From Sulfurospirillum barnesii SES-3 (GTDB taxonomy: Bacteria; Campylobacterota; Campylobacteria; Campylobacterales; Sulfurospirillaceae): a stretch of DNA of 64,000 bases. Position numbers and translations under genes: made by a program. The stretch spans positions 806,001 to 870,000 of the forward strand of contig NC_018002.1 of assembly GCF_000265295.1 (NCBI RefSeq). Direction: 5' to 3'. A model generated the notes under the pieces. The model was not told where the DNA came from. It ran no database searches and saw only the letters and a list, made by a program, of their open reading frames with translations. This document shows, in pieces, positions 8,125 to 16,590 of this stretch; positions within the stretch are counted from its first letter, which is position 1; each line of letters opens with the position of its first letter.

Positions 8125-8201
8125 GTCAAGGTAGCTCAGCTGGTTAGAGCGCTGGTCTCATAAGCCGGAGGTCGGGGGTTCGAGTCCCCCTCTTGACACC
8201 A
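8125..8201 (+). tRNA. tRNA-Met (anticodon CAT)
   Basis: A 77-base cloverleaf with the CCA end encoded. The acceptor stem GTCAAGG pairs with TCTTGAC, with A as discriminator. The D arm is GCTC/GAGC, the anticodon stem CTGGT/GCCGG carries the loop CTCATAA, and the T arm GGGGG/CCCCC has loop TTCGAGT. Anticodon CAT reads Met. The anticodon stem lacks the three G-C pairs of an initiator, so an elongator is favoured. tRNA-Ile with modified CAT cannot be wholly excluded. The defence island begins just downstream. Confidence 0.93.
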
Positions 8202-8307
8202 CTCAAACTTCACAAATCTCTAATCAACCCAAACACAAAATACTTTAGTCGATACGAGAACATTCATTAAACTATAATCTTCTTTCTGTAATAATCCACA
8301 CAGGAAT

Positions 8308-8523
8308 TTATTTTAATATTAGTATGTCATTTATAATTTTGTATTTGTTGAGAAGAGAGTTTAGAAAAGCCACGCTTTTTTCTTTATCTACGCAGTTATA
8401 AGGCAAAGTTGTAGGTAGTTTTTTTAAGATAATTTTCTTTGCTTTGGTAAAAGATAAGTATTCGAACTCATTGTTCGAATATTCGATGTAGACATCTTTT
8501 TCCATTATGTCAATATAAATCAT
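8308..8523 (-). CDS. Hypothetical small protein
   Basis: A 71-residue acidic/lysine-rich frame that I do not recognise. It has no signal peptide or membrane helix. It is transcribed away from the helix-turn-helix gene at 8607, sharing an AT-rich promoter region that holds two copies of TTATGTCAA about 70 bases apart. A later ATG at 8505 is a possible start. It may be a small island regulator or not a gene at all. Confidence 0.4.
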   Translation of the reverse strand: MIYIDIMEKDVYIEYSNNEFEYLSFTKAKKIILKKLPTTLPYNCVDKEKSVAFLNSLLNKYKIINDILILK

Positions 8524-8606
8524 TTTATGGAAAATATTCCTTTTATTTTGAAAATTATAGTAAATAATTTCCGTTATGTCAAGTATTTTGTATAGGAAAT
8601 ATAAAA

Positions 8607-8789
8607 ATGACTAAAAAAGAGCTAGCAGAACGCATTAATATTGACCCAAAGACTTTAAAAAATTGGGAAACCTCCAAACCTGAACTTATTAAACTTATTT
8701 ATCTTGGATTAGCTACAGAAGAGCATATCAAAGAGACTGAAAAATACATTAGTAATATTAATCAATATGTTAACCCAAAAATAAAGTGA
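8607..8789 (+). CDS. Small helix-turn-helix protein
   Basis: A 60-residue protein beginning MTKKELAERINIDPKTLKNW, which reads as a helix-turn-helix like those of phage or transposon regulators. A good ribosome site (AGGAAATATAAAA) precedes the ATG. Its stop overlaps the GTG start of the next gene (GTGA), so the two are translationally coupled. Control of the AbiC-like/DUF262 operon is inferred from this arrangement only. Confidence 0.65.
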   Translation: MTKKELAERINIDPKTLKNWETSKPELIKLIYLGLATEEHIKETEKYISNINQYVNPKIK

Positions 8790-9694
8790 AGTTAGAGATT
8801 ATGATTATAGGATTACCCATTTTAATCATTATCAGTCTTTCGTGCTTAGTCTTTTTATGTATGATTTTTTATGAAATACACACAAAAAAAGAGCTCCCTT
8901 ATAAGTTTGAAGCAATCCACTGGTTATCCTTTTTTTCCATACTATGGTTTATGATTATTCTTTTCATCGCTTCAACTAAAACAACAACAGATACTGAAAT
9001 TAATGTATGGGGAGATTATTTAGCTGGTTTTTTTGCACCTGTTTTGTTTTTATGGCTAGTATATGGTGTATTTATACAAAAAAAAGAATTTGCTAATGCT
9101 TTAGAGTCTTTTCAATTACAACATAAAGAAATGAGAGGGCAAAGTGAACAAATTGAGATACAGCAACTAAATACTTGGTTTAATAGAAATGCTAAAACAA
9201 TCAATATGTTAAAAACTACTATTATGCAAGATGTAAAGAAATCAATACAACAAATTTCAGTTGACTTAGAAGAAACTATAATAAACCATGATGATTTCTT
9301 TGAAGTGTATGATGAATTAAAGAATTTAATAAATATAGATATTTATGTTAAAGAGTATCTATCAGAACTAAAAAAATCTAGTGATCATAAAACATTTCAA
9401 AAATCAATTGATGAAATATTAAATGAATATGAAGTTTTATTTAAAACTGACATCCAATATGCGAAAAGAATTTTAACCTTGATATATTTTTTTATTTTTG
9501 CTAGTGTGAAACAAGATGAACAATATAAAAAATATAAAATTTATTCAAAATGGTTTAAAGATGAGGAAGACTATCAAAATATACTCATTACTTATACGAA
9601 AACAACTTTTGAAGAAACATTGAAAGAAGTAATGAAAAATTATCAAAAATTTGAAATAAATTTTAAAACAGGAAAGCTATATGGAAACATTTAA
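8786..9694 (+). CDS. Membrane-anchored AbiC-like putative phage-abortive-infection protein
   Basis: A 302-residue protein. Two N-terminal membrane helices (about residues 5-30 and 45-65) are followed by the stretch WGDYLAGFFAPVLFLWLVYG, then a coiled coil rich in Gln and Glu, then a helical cytoplasmic domain. This pattern (two helices, a W-G-D/F-x2-G-F-F segment, coiled coil) is what I know from proteins annotated as putative phage abortive infection protein (AbiC-like). Start is a GTG overlapping the upstream stop. The gene overlaps the DUF262 gene by 14 bases. Antiviral function is inferred from family resemblance and neighbours. Confidence 0.6.
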   Translation: MKLEIMIIGLPILIIISLSCLVFLCMIFYEIHTKKELPYKFEAIHWLSFFSILWFMIILFIASTKTTTDTEINVWGDYLAGFFAPVLFLWLVYGVFIQKKEFANALESFQLQHKEMRGQSEQIEIQQLNTWFNRNAKTINMLKTTIMQDVKKSIQQISVDLEETIINHDDFFEVYDELKNLINIDIYVKEYLSELKKSSDHKTFQKSIDEILNEYEVLFKTDIQYAKRILTLIYFFIFASVKQDEQYKKYKIYSKWFKDEEDYQNILITYTKTTFEETLKEVMKNYQKFEINFKTGKLYGNI

Positions 9695-11525
9695 AACTGA
9701 TACTTATACAATACGACAATTATTAAAAAATGAAACTGACGAAAACGATAGGGGCAAGAATTATTTTATACCACCTTATCAAAGAAAATATGATTGGGAC
9801 CAAGAACAAGTTGAAAAATTAATTGACGATATTTTTGAACAAGTGAATAAAAAAACAGAACAAGGATATAAACCTTATTTTATTGGTGGAGTAGTTCTTT
9901 CTCAACAGTCTATTTTAGGTGATGAAAGAAGTAAAAAATCACTTGAAGTCATTGATGGGCAACAAAGGCTTACTACGATTGTTTTAATTTTAGCCTCAAT
10001 TGTTCAACTATTGAAGTTTCAAGATAGACAATTTGAAAATAAAAAAGATGTTTCGGAACATTTAATCAATGATATATCTAAAATATTAAAAATAAAAACT
10101 TTAAATTTAAGCACTATGAATGTTGAAGAAAAATATATTTTAGAACGTTCAGATGCGTTATCAACAGATTTTCAAAAAACAATAAATTTTTTAATTGAAA
10201 CAAAAATAACAGATAAGATAGACCTTAAAAAAATCATAACAAATAATGAAGATTCAGAAAAGTTAATCAATCTCGTCTTTATCATCAAGGAGAAAATAGA
10301 AATCTTTGACGACAATGAATTAACAGATTTTACATTACAACTTTTAAATAGCACTTGGTTAGTAGTAACAAAAACTATTTCCATAGAGACAGGTTTTTTT
10401 ATTTTTGAAAAACTCAATGATAGCGGAATTGCTTTAGAACCTCAAGACTTATTAAAGAATTATTTTTTTAGAACGTCAACTGAAAGTGAATATAATCAAC
10501 TAACTGAAAAATGGAAACTATTTCTAACAACAGTAACTAATATTAATAGTTCAAAAGCAAAAATTCTTCCAAGAGATTTTTTAGAGCAATATTTAACCAT
10601 TATTGGAGATGCAAAAGATACAAAAACACATTCTAGCAATGGAAAAATTTTCAAACAATTTAAATCAATCCAGCAAAGTGATTTTACTAAATCTATTGAA
10701 TTATTAGAGCATCTAATAAAAATAGCAACTGAATATGGAAAACTTAAACGAAATGATTCAATTGCTCAATATTTAAACGTAATGAATTTTAAATTGGGAT
10801 ATTTGATAGTTTTGTCATTTTATAAACGATTTGATGATGAATATTTAAATTATAAAAATGACATACTATTGATAGTAGTTAAATTAGGCTTAGTTTATTT
10901 GGTAACAGGACAAAGTAAAGAATTGAGTGTAGTAATTCCTAATTTATGTTATGAAATTATAAATAAAGGTAAAGATATACAAGATACTTTAGTAATCGCA
11001 AATAGTTATATTAATGGGCTTATTTCAAAGAAAAAAGATACTTTTGATGAAGTCGTTTCAAGTACCAATTTGTGGAGAAAAAAACCATTAACAAGACTCT
11101 TGTTAAGCATATTAGAATTTCATGTTGGTGGTAATAAACTACCTAATTATTTTAACTTATTTCAAATCATGCCTCAAGAGTATTCATCAGAATTTCAATA
11201 TGATGAAATCGATGAGGATAATTGTAATAAATATGCCAATTATATTGGCAATATATTAATAGATAAAGATAGCAAATACGCAGATATTGATGACAATAAT
11301 TTTAAAGAAAGATACAAAAATGATAGCGATGTTATCTTAAATAACTTAGACAAAAAAATAGTAATTAAGGACAAGGAAATAGATTTTTTGACTGAAACAA
11401 ATAATTTATCTTGGGGTAAAAATAGGATTATAGAAAGAAGTCAAACTTTAACTGAGTTGGCAAAACATGTTATCATAAATGATAATTTTAATAAAGATTT
11501 TTTCAAAGATATTGACAAAAAGTAA
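9681..11525 (+). CDS. DUF262 (GmrSD/SspE-like) protein with degenerate nuclease domain
   Basis: A 614-residue protein. The N-terminal DUF262 domain has IPPYQRKYDWD (30-40), FIGGVVL (67-73), the nucleotide-binding motif DGQQR (92-96), and later FEKLNDSGIALEPQDLLKN. The C-terminus resembles DUF1524, the His-Me-finger nuclease of GmrSD and SspE. However, where the family has EHIxPQ this protein has LFQIMPQ, with Gln at residue 495 in place of the catalytic His. The IGN motif and the terminal WGKNRIIERSQTL remain. Overlaps the AbiC-like gene. In SspE the DUF262 domain senses phosphorothioate DNA, and dnd genes lie next door here. Strong AT bias. Confidence 0.8.
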   Translation: METFKTDTYTIRQLLKNETDENDRGKNYFIPPYQRKYDWDQEQVEKLIDDIFEQVNKKTEQGYKPYFIGGVVLSQQSILGDERSKKSLEVIDGQQRLTTIVLILASIVQLLKFQDRQFENKKDVSEHLINDISKILKIKTLNLSTMNVEEKYILERSDALSTDFQKTINFLIETKITDKIDLKKIITNNEDSEKLINLVFIIKEKIEIFDDNELTDFTLQLLNSTWLVVTKTISIETGFFIFEKLNDSGIALEPQDLLKNYFFRTSTESEYNQLTEKWKLFLTTVTNINSSKAKILPRDFLEQYLTIIGDAKDTKTHSSNGKIFKQFKSIQQSDFTKSIELLEHLIKIATEYGKLKRNDSIAQYLNVMNFKLGYLIVLSFYKRFDDEYLNYKNDILLIVVKLGLVYLVTGQSKELSVVIPNLCYEIINKGKDIQDTLVIANSYINGLISKKKDTFDEVVSSTNLWRKKPLTRLLLSILEFHVGGNKLPNYFNLFQIMPQEYSSEFQYDEIDEDNCNKYANYIGNILIDKDSKYADIDDNNFKERYKNDSDVILNNLDKKIVIKDKEIDFLTETNNLSWGKNRIIERSQTLTELAKHVIINDNFNKDFFKDIDKK

Positions 11526-11548
11526 AGAGGCAAAAGACTATTAAAATC

Positions 11549-11914
11549 TTAAAGTTTACTTTGCAACTTCAAAATGTTATCTTCAAGTTCATCAAGTTTT
11601 TCACTGCAGATGTCATAGATGGTTTCGGCATCTATGTCTATGTAATGGTGGGTGAGGATTTCTCGTGTTTTGATGATTTTGCTCCAGTAGGTTTTATCTG
11701 CCACTTGAAGTAAAAAATCTCTTTCTTTTTTGTCTATATTTTTGAGAGCTTCGCCGATGGACTGAAGCCTCATAGATATGGCGTCAAGTCTCATAAGCCC
11801 GTCATTGTTAGCCAAAAAGTCATCACTTGAGTTGATGGGTGCAAATCTTTCTTTTATAAGGTGAATACTTTGAAGTATAAAATGGATAAGTTCAGAGATA
11901 TTTGCCTTATCCAT
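11549..11914 (-). CDS. hepT: HEPN-domain toxin HepT
   Basis: A 121-residue all-helical HEPN (DUF86) protein with the catalytic RX4HXY motif intact at R84, H89 and Y91 (REILTHHY). HepT toxins cut RNA, including tRNA. The partner nucleotidyltransferase MntA silences them by adding AMP to the Tyr of this motif. The start overlaps the end of mntA by eight bases. It is the last gene of a minus-strand run that begins with dndC and ends 23 bases from the convergent DUF262 gene. Confidence 0.9.
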   Translation of the reverse strand: MDKANISELIHFILQSIHLIKERFAPINSSDDFLANNDGLMRLDAISMRLQSIGEALKNIDKKERDFLLQVADKTYWSKIIKTREILTHHYIDIDAETIYDICSEKLDELEDNILKLQSKL

Positions 11915-12197
11915 AGATGACCTCTTTTTGAATGTTTGAGATGATGACAGGGTTGTTGTTTTTGTGCCTGTGGATGATGTCTATTTTTTTATGATACAGC
12001 TCTTCGAGATAGACCCATAGCCCTGCAAGATTATCAAAAGTTTTTCTTTTAAATTCTACATAAAAATCTATATCACTCTCATCCGTTTGTTTATCTTTTG
12101 CATAGCTACCAAAAAGACCAATTTTACTTACCTCAAACTCTTTTTCAAGGTAAGGTCTTTGCTTGGAAAGAGTTAAAAGAATTTCTTGTTTTGTCAT
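11907..12197 (-). CDS. mntA: MNT-domain nucleotidyltransferase antitoxin MntA
   Basis: A 96-residue minimal nucleotidyltransferase. The signature GSX10DXD is complete (G30, S31, D42, D44 in FGSYAKDKQTDESDID), with a further conserved KKIDIIH strand that should supply the third acidic residue. Family members AMPylate HepT and so act as enzymatic antitoxins. The gene is first of the pair, overlaps hepT, and lies 49 bases after dndE in the same direction, so read-through from the dnd operon is possible. Confidence 0.9.
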   Translation of the reverse strand: MTKQEILLTLSKQRPYLEKEFEVSKIGLFGSYAKDKQTDESDIDFYVEFKRKTFDNLAGLWVYLEELYHKKIDIIHRHKNNNPVIISNIQKEVIYG

Positions 12198-12246
12198 TGG
12201 GAATCTCCGTTAACTTTTATAATATTATAGTGCAAAAATCAAGCAT

Positions 12247-12630
12247 TTAAAAATCTTGCCCTAAAAACTCAAATATATTGCTATCGTGCTTGAGTGAAGT
12301 TTTAAGGATGAGATAGCCCCTAATGATGTGTTTTTGGAGATTTTCTTCTAACTGTCTTTTTGAAGTGATAGTCTTGTCATCAAATACTTCTATCATATCC
12401 CAAAAAAGTTTTGTGAAGTCTTCGCTTCCTTTCCCTTCACCCGTGATTTGTTCTAGTCGATACTCTTTCCCATCAAAACTTTCTATTTTTTCTTCTTCAT
12501 AAGGTTGTTCGAGCGATAAAGATATATTGATCATAAAGCGTAAAATGACCCATTTAGGTTCATTTTCTAGATTTAGCATCTTTGATAGAGGGTAAATGTA
12601 GTTTTCTATATCTTGGGTTGTTCTTATCAT
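12247..12630 (-). CDS. dndE: DNA phosphorothioation protein DndE
   Basis: A 127-residue protein matching the DndE (DUF1832) pattern. The core reads KWVILRFMINISLSLEQ, where DndE proteins have a W-x-V/I-L-x-R-x6-SL segment, and a late HIIRGYLIL stretch follows. DndE is a small helical protein thought to bind nicked DNA or help assemble the sulfur-modification complex. The match is weaker than for DndC and DndD, but size and position are right. The start overlaps the dndD stop by four bases (ATGA). Confidence 0.8.
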   Translation of the reverse strand: MIRTTQDIENYIYPLSKMLNLENEPKWVILRFMINISLSLEQPYEEEKIESFDGKEYRLEQITGEGKGSEDFTKLFWDMIEVFDDKTITSKRQLEENLQKHIIRGYLILKTSLKHDSNIFEFLGQDF

Positions 12631-14375
12631 GCTATTTCCTCTATCTTGGAGCCTAATGTATCTCGTTCTATTTGGTACGTTTTGTATTTAAGATTTTGTG
12701 TTTTGACAAAATCAAATTCACTGTCTGTAAGTAGCAAGATGAGAGTATCAAATGACAAATAGCATGTATGCAAAAGCAACTCTTTGTTTTTATTAGAAAG
12801 CCTTCCAAAAGGAGTATCGATCATGATGAATGATGTGAACTCTTTGAAATCCAAAATAGTTTTAATAATTAGAAAATTGAGGACTTGCTTTTGCCCAGCT
12901 GAGAGTAGTTCTGTACTAAGTATTTCTTTGCCATCGCTAATAATGATTCGATGAGAATTATCGATATATATTGCTTTGATATGCTCATATTGTTTTAAAA
13001 ATTTAGTGGTATTGTCTTGTAACTTTTGATTGAAAAGTACAAGGTTTTTTTCTAATTTTTGATTATAAACTTTTGTACTTATTTGAGCGATAATCCGCAG
13101 CTCTTCATAACCTTTGATAAACGCATATTTTTCTTGATTGGCTTTAAAGCTTTGTGTAAGTGTTCGATTGATCTCTTTTGCTTCTAGCGTGTTTTGTTCA
13201 ATACTTTCTTCTAACTCAGTCAAGGATTTTTCCAGATTGTTTAAGCGTTCTTCTTGCTCTTTTTGTGTTTCAACTAAAGAGCGCATGATTTCTTGCTCCA
13301 TAGCAGAATCTTGTGCAAGCTTGATCTTTTCTTCAAGTTGTTTTATAGAGAGCCTTAGGTCTTTCATCTTTTCAATAAGTTTTTTAAAGTCGCGTGGAGA
13401 AAGTGTAAGGTCTATTTGATTTGACTCATTAATCATTAGTGATTTAAATAACTCTAATACTTTATTTTCATCCAGAGGAGAGTTGATCTCTTGGGTAAAT
13501 TTATAAAATTTATTGACGAAAAGAGATTCATCTTCTATTTTTAAAGCACTAGAAGTTCGTTTTTGCATTTTATTAAGCAAATTTTGATTTAAGAGAAGAG
13601 GCATTTGCCAGAGGATAAGCTCTTTTAGTTTGTTTGATTTTTTATCGAGGTCTGCTTGCAAAAGTTCTAATTCATCGTGAAGGAGTTTGACCTTTTTATT
13701 TCTATTTTTTATTTGGGTATTTAACTTTTGAAGATTCATTGCTAGAGCTTTGACTTCTTTTGTTTTTTCTTTTAACTCTTCTCTTTGTACAGAAATAGTT
13801 TCTAAGAAAGTTAATCTTTGATTTTCTAAGTCAATGAGATTTGCACTTTCTTCATCATTGTTTTTTTCCAAAAGTTTTTTTGCAACTTCAAGAGAATCTT
13901 TTTGGGTATTGACTAATAAGTCTAAATCAAAAATAAAATCAAATATATTTTTTAATTTTGTATTTGAGAGTAGTAATAAATTATTGCCTACTTCTCCATC
14001 GTAAAAAAGAAAATCAACTAAAAAATCAGGGATTTTATTTTTGATGAAATGCTCTGCTTCTATATCTTCAATCTTATTACTATCTGTGAAAACAATACTC
14101 AAGGATTCTTCAAGTTTGGGCGCAAAAATCCAACTTCTTTTGATGCTAAATTCATCAAAATTCAAGGTAACTGAACATTTCTTTTCAGTTGCATTATTAT
14201 TTAAAATAGATTTTACATCGATGTCTGACTGACCTAAACACAGCTTAATAGAATTTAAAATTGAAGTTTTTCCAAAACCGTTTGTTCCAATGATGCAAGT
14301 AATATTGTCGAATGAAATAGTGCTAACTCCATTGTATGAAAAGAGATTATTGATGACAATATTAGTTAGTTTCAC
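12627..14375 (-). CDS. dndD: DNA phosphorothioation ATPase DndD
   Basis: A 583-residue SMC/RecF-like ATPase. The Walker A motif GTNGFGKTS is at residues 30-38. A long central coiled coil follows, then an ABC-type signature around LLSAGQKQVLN and Walker B FIMIDTPFG near the end. I start it at a GTG (14375) that lies inside the last codons of dndC and has AAAGGTGAA upstream. A longer frame to 14432 is open but overlaps dndC by 71 bases without a clear ribosome site. DndD supplies ATPase activity in phosphorothioate insertion. Confidence 0.92.
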   Translation of the reverse strand: MKLTNIVINNLFSYNGVSTISFDNITCIIGTNGFGKTSILNSIKLCLGQSDIDVKSILNNNATEKKCSVTLNFDEFSIKRSWIFAPKLEESLSIVFTDSNKIEDIEAEHFIKNKIPDFLVDFLFYDGEVGNNLLLLSNTKLKNIFDFIFDLDLLVNTQKDSLEVAKKLLEKNNDEESANLIDLENQRLTFLETISVQREELKEKTKEVKALAMNLQKLNTQIKNRNKKVKLLHDELELLQADLDKKSNKLKELILWQMPLLLNQNLLNKMQKRTSSALKIEDESLFVNKFYKFTQEINSPLDENKVLELFKSLMINESNQIDLTLSPRDFKKLIEKMKDLRLSIKQLEEKIKLAQDSAMEQEIMRSLVETQKEQEERLNNLEKSLTELEESIEQNTLEAKEINRTLTQSFKANQEKYAFIKGYEELRIIAQISTKVYNQKLEKNLVLFNQKLQDNTTKFLKQYEHIKAIYIDNSHRIIISDGKEILSTELLSAGQKQVLNFLIIKTILDFKEFTSFIMIDTPFGRLSNKNKELLLHTCYLSFDTLILLLTDSEFDFVKTQNLKYKTYQIERDTLGSKIEEIA

Positions 14376-15699
14376 GGAATTCACCTTTATAAAAATCAAC
14401 AACTTTTTTCTCAATATCATTGACAATAGCATATCTATTAGAGATGTTTTTTCTGTAGGCTTCTATCTCATATATTCGTTCAAATAGGTCTATATTGAAA
14501 TTTTCTTCTGCAAATGTTTCTAGCTCTTCTCTCAAATCAGTTGTAATGGCTTGATCATTTAGGCGAGTGAATTTTTGGGCTATTCGATACGCATTATTGG
14601 ATATGTCGCCATCCTTATTCCAGTTTTTTTGAATAAGCATAATTTCATCGTCTTTAATAAGTTCTATTTTTTCATGTGGATTATAATCCATAGCGTTTTT
14701 TTTCATTGAATGATAGTTTATATTGACTTGCTTCTCTACTTGCAATAAATCTTCTAAAAGTTCTCTACGAACTACAGGCAAAAATGGTCCAGCACCAGTT
14801 GAACCGTCTCTTCTTCTTGTATCTCTTTTTTCAGGGTCATTTCTATAGTTGTACAGCTTTTCTCTATACTCCCAAAGTGGTAACATCCACTCTTCACCAT
14901 TTCTCAACATACCTTCCATTGAGCGGTCTTTTTCCACTACAGTACAAACCCAACAACCAAATCGTGTTTTTCCGCAAGATGGCGAGTCTGGGTTTAGAGC
15001 AATATTGCAGTCTCCTTCTCCACTACCTTTATCATATAAACTCATCATATAGGAGTGATCACCCCATGGGAAAGGGTTTTGTCCTAGATATGTCCATACT
15101 TCTTCATTTGACCAATATTTGATAGGAGATAGCACATAAGCATTAGGTATAGAGTCATGTACAGATAGACCTCTATGATTTAACACTCTTCCTTCTATCG
15201 AAGCTGCTCTTGCTTGAGATTCATCTGCTCTAACACCAAGTAGCATAAGGATGGACTGATGCTTATTGACTAATCCTTTTAGAAATTCGGTTGCGGGGTT
15301 AATCTTCAATCTTTCAGTACACCATCGAAATGAACTTGTAGGGGCAGGGTAGCCAAGACCTAACATCAAAGTCCAAAAAGACTCTTCCATCTTTGGCTCT
15401 AATTTATGGCATGATAATTTTAAATCAGTTTCATCTGCAAATTTTTTAATTTGATTAAGTCGTGTATTTGTATAGTTCTCAATGATAGGCATTTCAACTG
15501 TTGTATCAGATGATACTACATAAACATGTTTATGGTCTTTGCCTTCATTATGAAGCATTTGGATCATACTAATTACTAGATGCAAGACGGTAGTAGAATC
15601 TTTTCCTCCTGAGTATGTAACCACCCATGGTCTGTCATCTGCAAAGTATTGTTCTTTAAGTTCTTCTATTGTTTTTTGTATTTTTTCATCTATTTTCAT
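14362..15699 (-). CDS. dndC: DNA phosphorothioation sulfurtransferase DndC
   Basis: A 445-residue protein of the PAPS-reductase-like PP-loop family. The PP-loop SGGKDST is at residues 30-36. Cysteines likely to bind an iron-sulfur cluster are in FRWCTERLK (C127) and in the cluster C242, C249, C252 (SCGKTRFGCWVC). The tail segment EYREKLYNYRNDPEKRDTRR is typical of DndC. DndC adenylates DNA for sulfur transfer from a cysteine desulfurase (DndA or a host IscS). First gene of dndC-D-E. Neither dndA nor dndB is in the window. Confidence 0.95.
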   Translation of the reverse strand: MKIDEKIQKTIEELKEQYFADDRPWVVTYSGGKDSTTVLHLVISMIQMLHNEGKDHKHVYVVSSDTTVEMPIIENYTNTRLNQIKKFADETDLKLSCHKLEPKMEESFWTLMLGLGYPAPTSSFRWCTERLKINPATEFLKGLVNKHQSILMLLGVRADESQARAASIEGRVLNHRGLSVHDSIPNAYVLSPIKYWSNEEVWTYLGQNPFPWGDHSYMMSLYDKGSGEGDCNIALNPDSPSCGKTRFGCWVCTVVEKDRSMEGMLRNGEEWMLPLWEYREKLYNYRNDPEKRDTRRRDGSTGAGPFLPVVRRELLEDLLQVEKQVNINYHSMKKNAMDYNPHEKIELIKDDEIMLIQKNWNKDGDISNNAYRIAQKFTRLNDQAITTDLREELETFAEENFNIDLFERIYEIEAYRKNISNRYAIVNDIEKKVVDFYKGEFRETN

Positions 15700-15830
15700 G
15701 GGGTGAATATTAACATTTTAAAGTTTAAACTGTGAAGTGAAGAGTACTTGTAGGTATGTCTCTTTTTATTCGAAGTCTAAATGATGGATATAGTTTAAAA
15801 AATACCTGTCCATTTTACCCCATCACCTCT

Positions 15831-15854
15831 TTTTAGGGGCTAAACTTTTAACTT
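15831..15854. repeat. Direct repeat, left copy
   Basis: TTTTAGGGGCTAAACTTTTA followed by ACTT. A second copy with one extra G lies at 16566-16590. The two copies bracket the yafQ-dinJ pair and a gene remnant. Confidence 0.75.
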
Positions 15855-15855
15855 C

Positions 15856-16128
15856 TTATTTAAACAATTTAGAATGCTTACCAACCTCTACCAAAACCAA
15901 TTCCACTTCATCGTTATTGATTTTGTAGATGAGCAGTAAGTCGGGTTTAATGTGACACTCCCTGCATCCTTTGTAATTGCCTATTAGAAAATGATCTTTG
16001 TATTTTTCATCCAAATTTTCACCGTTAGCAAGTTTTAAAACAATCATTAAAACAAGTTCTTGCTCAGGCGAAGCGAGCTTTTTGTAGGCTTTTTTGAAAG
16101 AAGAGGTACGAAAGATAGCGTATGTCAT
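15856..16128 (-). CDS. yafQ: YafQ-family type II toxin (mRNA interferase)
   Basis: A 90-residue RelE-superfamily protein that fits YafQ. The residues matching the known catalytic set are present: H46 and H59 (ECHIKPD), D63, H85 and F89 (GKHSKLF). YafQ cuts mRNA on the ribosome and is held inactive by DinJ. The ATG overlaps the stop of the antitoxin gene by four bases, as usual for this pair. All key residues look intact, so an active toxin is likely. Confidence 0.9.
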   Translation of the reverse strand: MTYAIFRTSSFKKAYKKLASPEQELVLMIVLKLANGENLDEKYKDHFLIGNYKGCRECHIKPDLLLIYKINNDEVELVLVEVGKHSKLFK

Positions 16129-16376
16129 GACTCAAGATCAGCTTTGAGTGCTTCGATGGAATCAAAGGATTTTCCTTCCCTTTTTTCTAGCTCTTTGAGT
16201 GCTTTTTTCATGCGTTCTGTTGGTACTTTTAATTCAAAGGGAATCGAATACGTCATCGCAACTTGCCTACAAAAAAGGTTGATGCCTTCACTCAGGCTCA
16301 GACCATACTGTTTTAACACTTCTGAAGCAATAATCTTTGTCTCTTCATCAATACGAACACTGGTTCCTGTTCTCAT
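16125..16376 (-). CDS. dinJ: RelB/DinJ-family antitoxin
   Basis: An 83-residue antitoxin. An N-terminal ribbon-helix-helix (TSVRIDEETKIIASEVLKQY, then LSLSEGINLF) binds the operator, and the C-terminal acidic part (KSFDSIEALKADLES) should wrap the toxin. The ATG at 16376 has a strong ribosome site (AAAAAGGAGATGCG), so I reject the longer frame to 16406. It lies upstream of yafQ and probably represses the pair together with it. Confidence 0.9.
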   Translation of the reverse strand: MRTGTSVRIDEETKIIASEVLKQYGLSLSEGINLFCRQVAMTYSIPFELKVPTERMKKALKELEKREGKSFDSIEALKADLES

Positions 16377-16442
16377 CGCATCTCCTTTTTTATAAAATTG
16401 TACCACAAATGTAGTACAATTTCAAACATATCCCCCTTCACT

Positions 16443-16577
16443 TCATCTCAAAATCCACTCTTTAATTTTCTCAATATGTTCTAAAAAAGTGGACTCATGG
16501 TCACTCTCTTCGCTCATTGGTGGAAGTATGTGCTCATAATAGGTGTCTTTTAAAAATTTTAGAAATTTTAGGGGGCT
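16443..16577 (-). pseudogene. Possible 3' remnant of a gene
   Basis: About 45 codons, open after a TAA near 16585 and ending in TGA at 16443-16445, without a start codon near its beginning. The translation (HILPPMSEESDHESTFLEHI, then EKIKEWILR) reads like the end of a real protein. It shares no start or ribosome site and runs into the second direct repeat. I do not recognise the family. It could be a decayed island gene or chance. Confidence 0.3.
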
Positions 16578-16590
16578 AAACTTTTAACTT
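16566..16590. repeat. Direct repeat, right copy
   Basis: The same sequence as 15831-15854 with one additional G (TTTTAGGGGGCTAAAC then TTTTAACTT). The copies are about 735 bases apart in the same orientation. Confidence 0.75.

Follow-up and report, generated by a model that had tools for sequence, protein, structure and literature searches.

A dndCDE island of Sulfurospirillum barnesii SES-3 that joins phosphorothioation genes to a putatively nuclease-dead DndI homologue and an overlapping membrane-protein gene

What acts on phosphorothioate (PT) marks in a genome in which the modification genes dndC, dndD and dndE lack their usual restriction partners? The question is raised by a locus in the 64,000-nucleotide stretch analysed here, referred to as the window (positions 806001-870000 of the complete, single-contig 2.51 Mb genome of S. 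barnesii SES-3), where a minus-strand dndC-dndD-dndE operon (15699-12247) and a plus-strand operon encoding an HTH protein, a membrane protein and a DUF262 protein (8607-11525) converge. The PT defences in the literature that we searched use effectors that cut DNA (DndFGH, DndI and SspE), with PbeABCD a debated case. A preliminary description of the locus had proposed a Dnd-type modification joined to an SspE-like sensor and a membrane effector, and had taken the combination to be undescribed; the pairing of a DUF262 protein with dndBCDE is, however, an established defence system, IscS-DndBCDE-DndI, published in 2024 (PMC11662687). The features of the region are:

8125..8201, plus strand: tRNA-Met, the left border of the island
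8607..8789, plus strand: HTH protein of 60 aa, probable regulator and first gene of its operon (HTH_3, E=5.7e-4, below the cut-off)
8786..9694, plus strand: membrane protein of 302 aa, proposed effector or anchor, with about three N-terminal TM helices and a helical cytoplasmic part of about 200 aa
9681..11525, plus strand: DUF262 protein of 614 aa with a predicted DndI/SspE fold, above the PF03235 cut-off
11549..11914, minus strand: HepT-like HEPN RNase toxin of a type VII toxin-antitoxin pair (PF01934, 1.5e-16; RX4HXY present as REILTHHY)
11907..12197, minus strand: MntA-like nucleotidyltransferase antitoxin (GSX10DXD present)
12247..12630, minus strand: dndE
12627..14432, minus strand: dndD, of a short divergent clade
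14362..15699, minus strand: dndC, sulfurtransferase
15856..16406, minus strand: YafQ/RelB toxin-antitoxin pair, beyond dndC at the right border

The region is a foreign island, since the G+C content falls from about 40% outside to 24-35% inside and gene order is shared with six congeners only as far as the 3' end of the tRNA-Met gene (8201-8221). A search for a tandem attachment site found no second copy of this 3' end at the right border, and the right edge of the island is therefore undefined. Two toxin-antitoxin pairs lie among these genes. HepT-MntA (11549-12197, minus strand) is placed between the DUF262 gene and dndE, runs in the same direction as the dnd genes and has both catalytic motifs visible; the YafQ-RelB DNA (15856-16406, minus strand) recurs elsewhere in the genomes of many congeners, in copies of 80-92% identity, and is probably a mobile cassette independent of the island.

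The view that dndC, dndD and dndE form a single compact operon was confirmed. DndC scores above the cut-off of TIGR03183 (371 bits), has an SGGKDST PP-loop and the conserved cysteines, and among PADLOC models matches DndC at 413 bits versus 45 bits for SspD; DndE is above the PF08870 cut-off (35.7 bits). DndD matches TIGR03185 and the PADLOC DndD and PbeC models only below the NCBIfam cut-off, and is assigned by these matches together with its kinship to the DndD of another genome, described below; its true start is probably the GTG near 14375. SspB, SspC and SspD were considered as the modification proteins of the island and rejected, as the ORFs match Dnd models. For dndA, which had been expected to come from elsewhere, a housekeeping cysteine desulfurase of the NifS 'epsilon' family is encoded outside the island (G000:C1:2260643; 670 bits to TIGR03403), such that a NifS/IscS enzyme appears to be available as a candidate stand-in for DndA. 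We infer that this dndCDE set carries out PT modification.

The genes dndB and dndFGH had been reported as absent from the window, and searches of the whole genome for DndB, DndF and DndH agree with this. No DndB was found (PF14072; controls positive in 2 of 14 genomes) and no DndH, whose model scores 1030 bits in the positive control G148; nothing exceeds the cut-off for DndF, with a single 26-bit background match off the island that has similar counterparts in 14 of 14 control genomes. A DndF or DndH elsewhere in the genome that might serve the operon was thus rejected by these model searches. Taken alone, the absence of DndB and DndF/DndH is unremarkable, because about half of Dnd taxa have no DndB and the modification genes frequently occur uncoupled from DndFGH (PMC10853773).

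The DUF262 protein is the only one encoded in this genome. A profile of two relatives searched against the PDB has DndI (9JFL) as its best match, at E 1.7e-23, with SspE (6JIV) at 1e-12. The AlphaFold2 model of the protein (mean pLDDT 85) aligns with 9JFL over 524 residues (Z 21.7, rmsd 6.2, TM-score 0.60) in a manner that matches the two-domain fold, and the rigid-body alignments with SspE (Z about 22) and BrxU are looser; the best PADLOC models are HEC-06 and 'Orf5'. Judged from its sequence the protein is better called DndI-like than SspE-like, and is a DndI homologue rather than a DndI nuclease. An identity as SspE was rejected, with the sequence nearer to DndI and the island genes being Dnd and not Ssp; of the SspE-like sensor and membrane effector proposed earlier, the SspE/DndI fold and the presence of a membrane protein stand, while the attribution to SspE gives way to DndI. 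Tyrosine Y33 of the protein aligns with the PT-sensing tyrosine Y25 of DndI, but most DUF262 proteins (30 of 37) have this residue and its presence is no proof of PT sensing.

The two halves of the protein have fared differently. When 37 DUF262 proteins are aligned, five residues of the HNH region are replaced in the window protein (E494F, H495Q, N533Y, N538D and K544R) at columns occupied by E, H, N, N and K in 35, 35, 34, 30 and 36 of the 37 respectively, while the sensor motifs DGQQR and PxYQRxYxW are kept, as is the middle Asn, N524. Pfam detects no GmrSD_C nuclease domain (PF07510, DUF1524) in it even at E 1, and does detect GmrSD_C in the dnd-linked DUF262 proteins of five other genomes (G004, G064, G148, G031 and G053). 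No break interrupts the 614-codon frame, and identity to the G004 relative is 23-33% in the C-terminal third versus 48-61% in the conserved sensor blocks. In Vibrio cholerae GrwA, replacement of the HNH His or of either Asn by Ala abolished defence (PMC12137116), and from their spacing these residues would correspond to 495, 524 and 533 of the window protein. The alignment thus points to a nuclease active site that is destroyed in a protein with an intact sensor half; nuclease action of the SspE or DndI kind was rejected for it, given the loss of active-site residues. Because the HNH appears destroyed while the sensor half is retained, an effector other than the protein's own nuclease is plausible.

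The association of this protein with dnd genes is not confined to one genome. A search of 399 Campylobacterales genomes gave only one other protein related to it at full length, with 38-40% identity from end to end, in the Campylobacteraceae MAG BB28 (G004, JADGEE010000018.1), which belongs to another family than the genome of the window; of two scans of genome contigs with the DUF262 protein, one returned nothing and the other the BB28 locus as the sole close relative. There a DUF262-dndC-dndD-dndE operon has 11 bp between the DUF262 gene and dndC, and its dndC, dndD and dndE products are the nearest relatives of those in the window (56, 39 and 48% identity). In trees, the window DndC pairs with that of BB28 (85/90 support) and DndD groups with those of BB28 and G053 (100/100). 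As the one protein that resembles the DUF262 protein at full length is encoded directly upstream of dndCDE, we conclude that the link between DUF262 and dnd is real. More generally, a DUF262 gene lies within 10 kb of dndC in 6 of the 13 Campylobacterales genomes whose DndC passes the cut-off, G053 being counted through inspection of its locus; the rough probability of this is about 3e-11 under a random model and about 2.5e-5 when a tenfold clustering in defence islands is allowed for. The co-occurrence proposed earlier for the DUF262 gene, the membrane-protein gene and dndCDE is accordingly seen for the DUF262 part, as the full-length relative in BB28 and, for DUF262 genes of any kind, at 6 of 13 dndC loci, and not for the membrane protein, which was found with dnd genes nowhere else.

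The convergent arrangement is the usual one, with an effector operon facing a modification operon, since it is shared by G148, in which dndH-dndI faces dndEDC, and by G064, in which genes for a helicase, an ABC ATPase and a DUF262 protein do so. The G148 locus (L066, 575-12209) encodes DndH and a strong match to PADLOC Orf5, convergent to dndEDC, and suggests that PADLOC 'Orf5' is DndI. The G064 locus (L065, 958-7514) has a PbeABCD-like set comprising a helicase with a weak PLD match, an ABC ATPase, small proteins and a nuclease-intact DUF262 protein, and the G053 locus (L069, 2691-12832) is a third dndCDE with a short DndD, accompanied by a HARE-HTH/Mrr restriction gene and an upstream DUF262 gene. 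IMG/VR viral contigs (L110-L139) encode a tight group of DUF262-HNH proteins of about 611 aa; no window-like dnd genes were found beside the DUF262 relatives on viral contigs.

The convergent partner operon had been described as an AbiC-like gene and a DUF262 gene. The DUF262 assignment (PF03235) and the presence of a membrane protein hold, the AbiC identity (PF16872) was rejected as no Pfam match appears at E up to 1, and the HTH gene had been overlooked. The three genes overlap each with the next: the HTH gene overlaps the start codon of the membrane-protein gene, a GTG inside its end, and the DUF262 gene begins within the membrane-protein gene, sharing its last 14 nt. Within the first 100 residues of the membrane protein hydropathy indicates about three hydrophobic helices, and the helical part follows; its single-sequence fold is poor (pLDDT 49). 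It has no significant Pfam, PADLOC or NCBIfam family, and its best match is phrog_9267 (1.1e-8), a phage family of unknown function. Full-length relatives were absent from 249 Campylobacterales genomes, viral contigs, plasmids and phages, with one partial match of 27% in the 248 Campylobacterales genomes other than this one; partial matches cover the TM and coiled-coil part only and occur in varied contexts. The gene is absent from the BB28 dnd locus. A physical or functional link between the DUF262 and membrane proteins is suggested by the gene overlap in this one genome.

We regard the membrane protein as a candidate partner because the nuclease appears to be gone, because control of a partner is the simplest use of a sensor that has been kept, and because the genes overlap. 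In DndI, PT raises ATPase activity and frees the protein from self DNA, and the nuclease acts on unmarked DNA (PMC11662687). In the scheme that we propose, DndCDE, with a housekeeping NifS/IscS in place of DndA, would mark host DNA with PT; the DUF262 protein would be a PT-sensing NTPase of the DndI family, co-inherited with this dndCDE, whose HNH is dead in this lineage so that it would not nick DNA. It may still sense, binding DNA with an NTP turnover altered by PT, and might pass this signal to the co-translated membrane protein, which would then arrest or kill the cell or hold unmarked DNA at the membrane. That the locus is a PT defence island in which a nuclease-dead DndI homologue acts through a membrane partner is the reading we prefer, if with less than even confidence. 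Its more specific form, a PT-gated system in which the homologue is a pure self/non-self sensor for a membrane effector in an abortive or membrane-based defence, is more doubtful. The absence from the genome of a second DUF262 protein and of DndB, DndF and DndH favours the preferred reading, as do the BB28 operon, the likeness to DndI in sequence and fold, the kept sensor motifs beside replaced HNH residues, the overlapping genes and the convergent layout shared with G148; the want of conservation of the membrane gene with dnd, the HepT-MntA pair between the two operons and the chance that loss of the HNH is decay speak against it. Precedents, each of which shows possibility only, are the Menshen DUF262 protein with its separate effector (PMC10952713), inactive Argonautes with auxiliary effectors (PMC11442185), and membrane-linked DNA defence (PMC12904381).

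Decay itself would make the locus an ordinary DndCDE-DndI system whose DndI-like protein has lost its nuclease and is disappearing; PT modification would outlast restriction, and the membrane gene would be next to it by chance. Nuclease residues that are lost here while BB28 retains the intact form, a fast-diverging C-terminal part and the poor conservation of the membrane gene with dnd are all as expected of this; a 614-codon frame intact within a stretch of 24% G+C, perfectly kept sensor motifs, a C-terminal domain still predicted to fold as DndI and the tight overlap with the membrane gene are not, and we consider it rather unlikely. Rather improbable too, in our estimation, is that two independent modules share one tRNA-Met hotspot and that the HTH-membrane-DUF262 operon senses something other than PT, for instance modified phage bases in the manner of GmrSD. 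DUF262 proteins do serve many systems (GmrSD, BrxU, GrwAB, Menshen and Dazbog), toxin-antitoxin cassettes interrupt the island, and synteny stops at the tRNA in all congeners examined; yet the sole close DUF262 relative, from another family, is encoded immediately before dndC on the same strand, its dndCDE partner is also the nearest relative of that in the window, and DUF262 genes are enriched near dndC in the order (the 6 of 13 above, at the more cautious of the two rough probabilities).

A nuclease-dead DUF262 protein might instead have replaced DndB, as a regulator of ParB/DUF262 fold that controls the dnd genes or PT density, the membrane protein being incidental or restrained by it. Such a role needs no nuclease, the genome has no DndB, and DndB and DUF262 proteins fall in the same ParB-like superfamily (PMC11662687). 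But the BB28 dnd operon also lacks DndB and has a nuclease-intact DUF262 protein, the absence of DndB is common, being found in about half of Dnd taxa (PMC10853773), and the DUF262 gene here belongs to a different operon from dnd, one with an HTH gene besides, all of which make this replacement very unlikely.

If a nuclease-dead sensor does act through a membrane partner, the PT-sensing half of these proteins would be reusable as a stand-alone switch, and the locus would offer a clean test of PT sensing by DUF262 proteins free of nuclease toxicity; the PT-gated form would have a counterpart in Argonautes that are catalytically inactive and work through separate effectors. Should the membrane link not hold, this locus and that of BB28 still define a DUF262-dndCDE unit without DndB or DndF/DndH and with a distinct short DndD. 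A limited literature search found no report of a PT system with a membrane effector, and the combination of nuclease loss, a putative membrane partner and missing DndB, DndF and DndH is a variant that we did not find described in the literature searched.

Among known systems, IscS-DndBCDE-DndI of Salmonella Cerro 87 (PMC11662687) shares with the island the Dnd modification genes, a DUF262 protein with the same two-domain fold, DGQQR and the sensing Tyr, an effector gene beside the modification operon and a housekeeping gene for the desulfurase; it differs in that the genome of the window lacks DndB, DndF and DndH and has an apparently lost HNH, additional HTH and membrane genes and a short, divergent DndD. 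SspABCD-SspE likewise combines PT modification with a DUF262-HNH protein of this fold, but the HNH of SspE is an active nickase, and the window has DndCDE in place of SspBCD and a DUF262 sequence nearer to DndI. Menshen and Dazbog (PMC10952713) have DUF262 NTPases without an HNH of their own (no DUF1524), with a separate OLD-type effector in Menshen, although neither is PT-linked and the window proteins have no PADLOC match to them. Kiwa and Zorya (PMC12904381) resemble the proposed arrangement in joining a membrane protein to a cytoplasmic partner that binds or cuts DNA, an analogy of layout only, with no match at the level of families. The BB28 operon has the nearest DUF262 protein, DndC, DndD and DndE, no DndH in its genome and no dndB in the operon; it differs in that its DUF262 gene immediately precedes dndC and runs the same way, its HNH is intact, it has no membrane protein and DNA adenine methylase genes follow.
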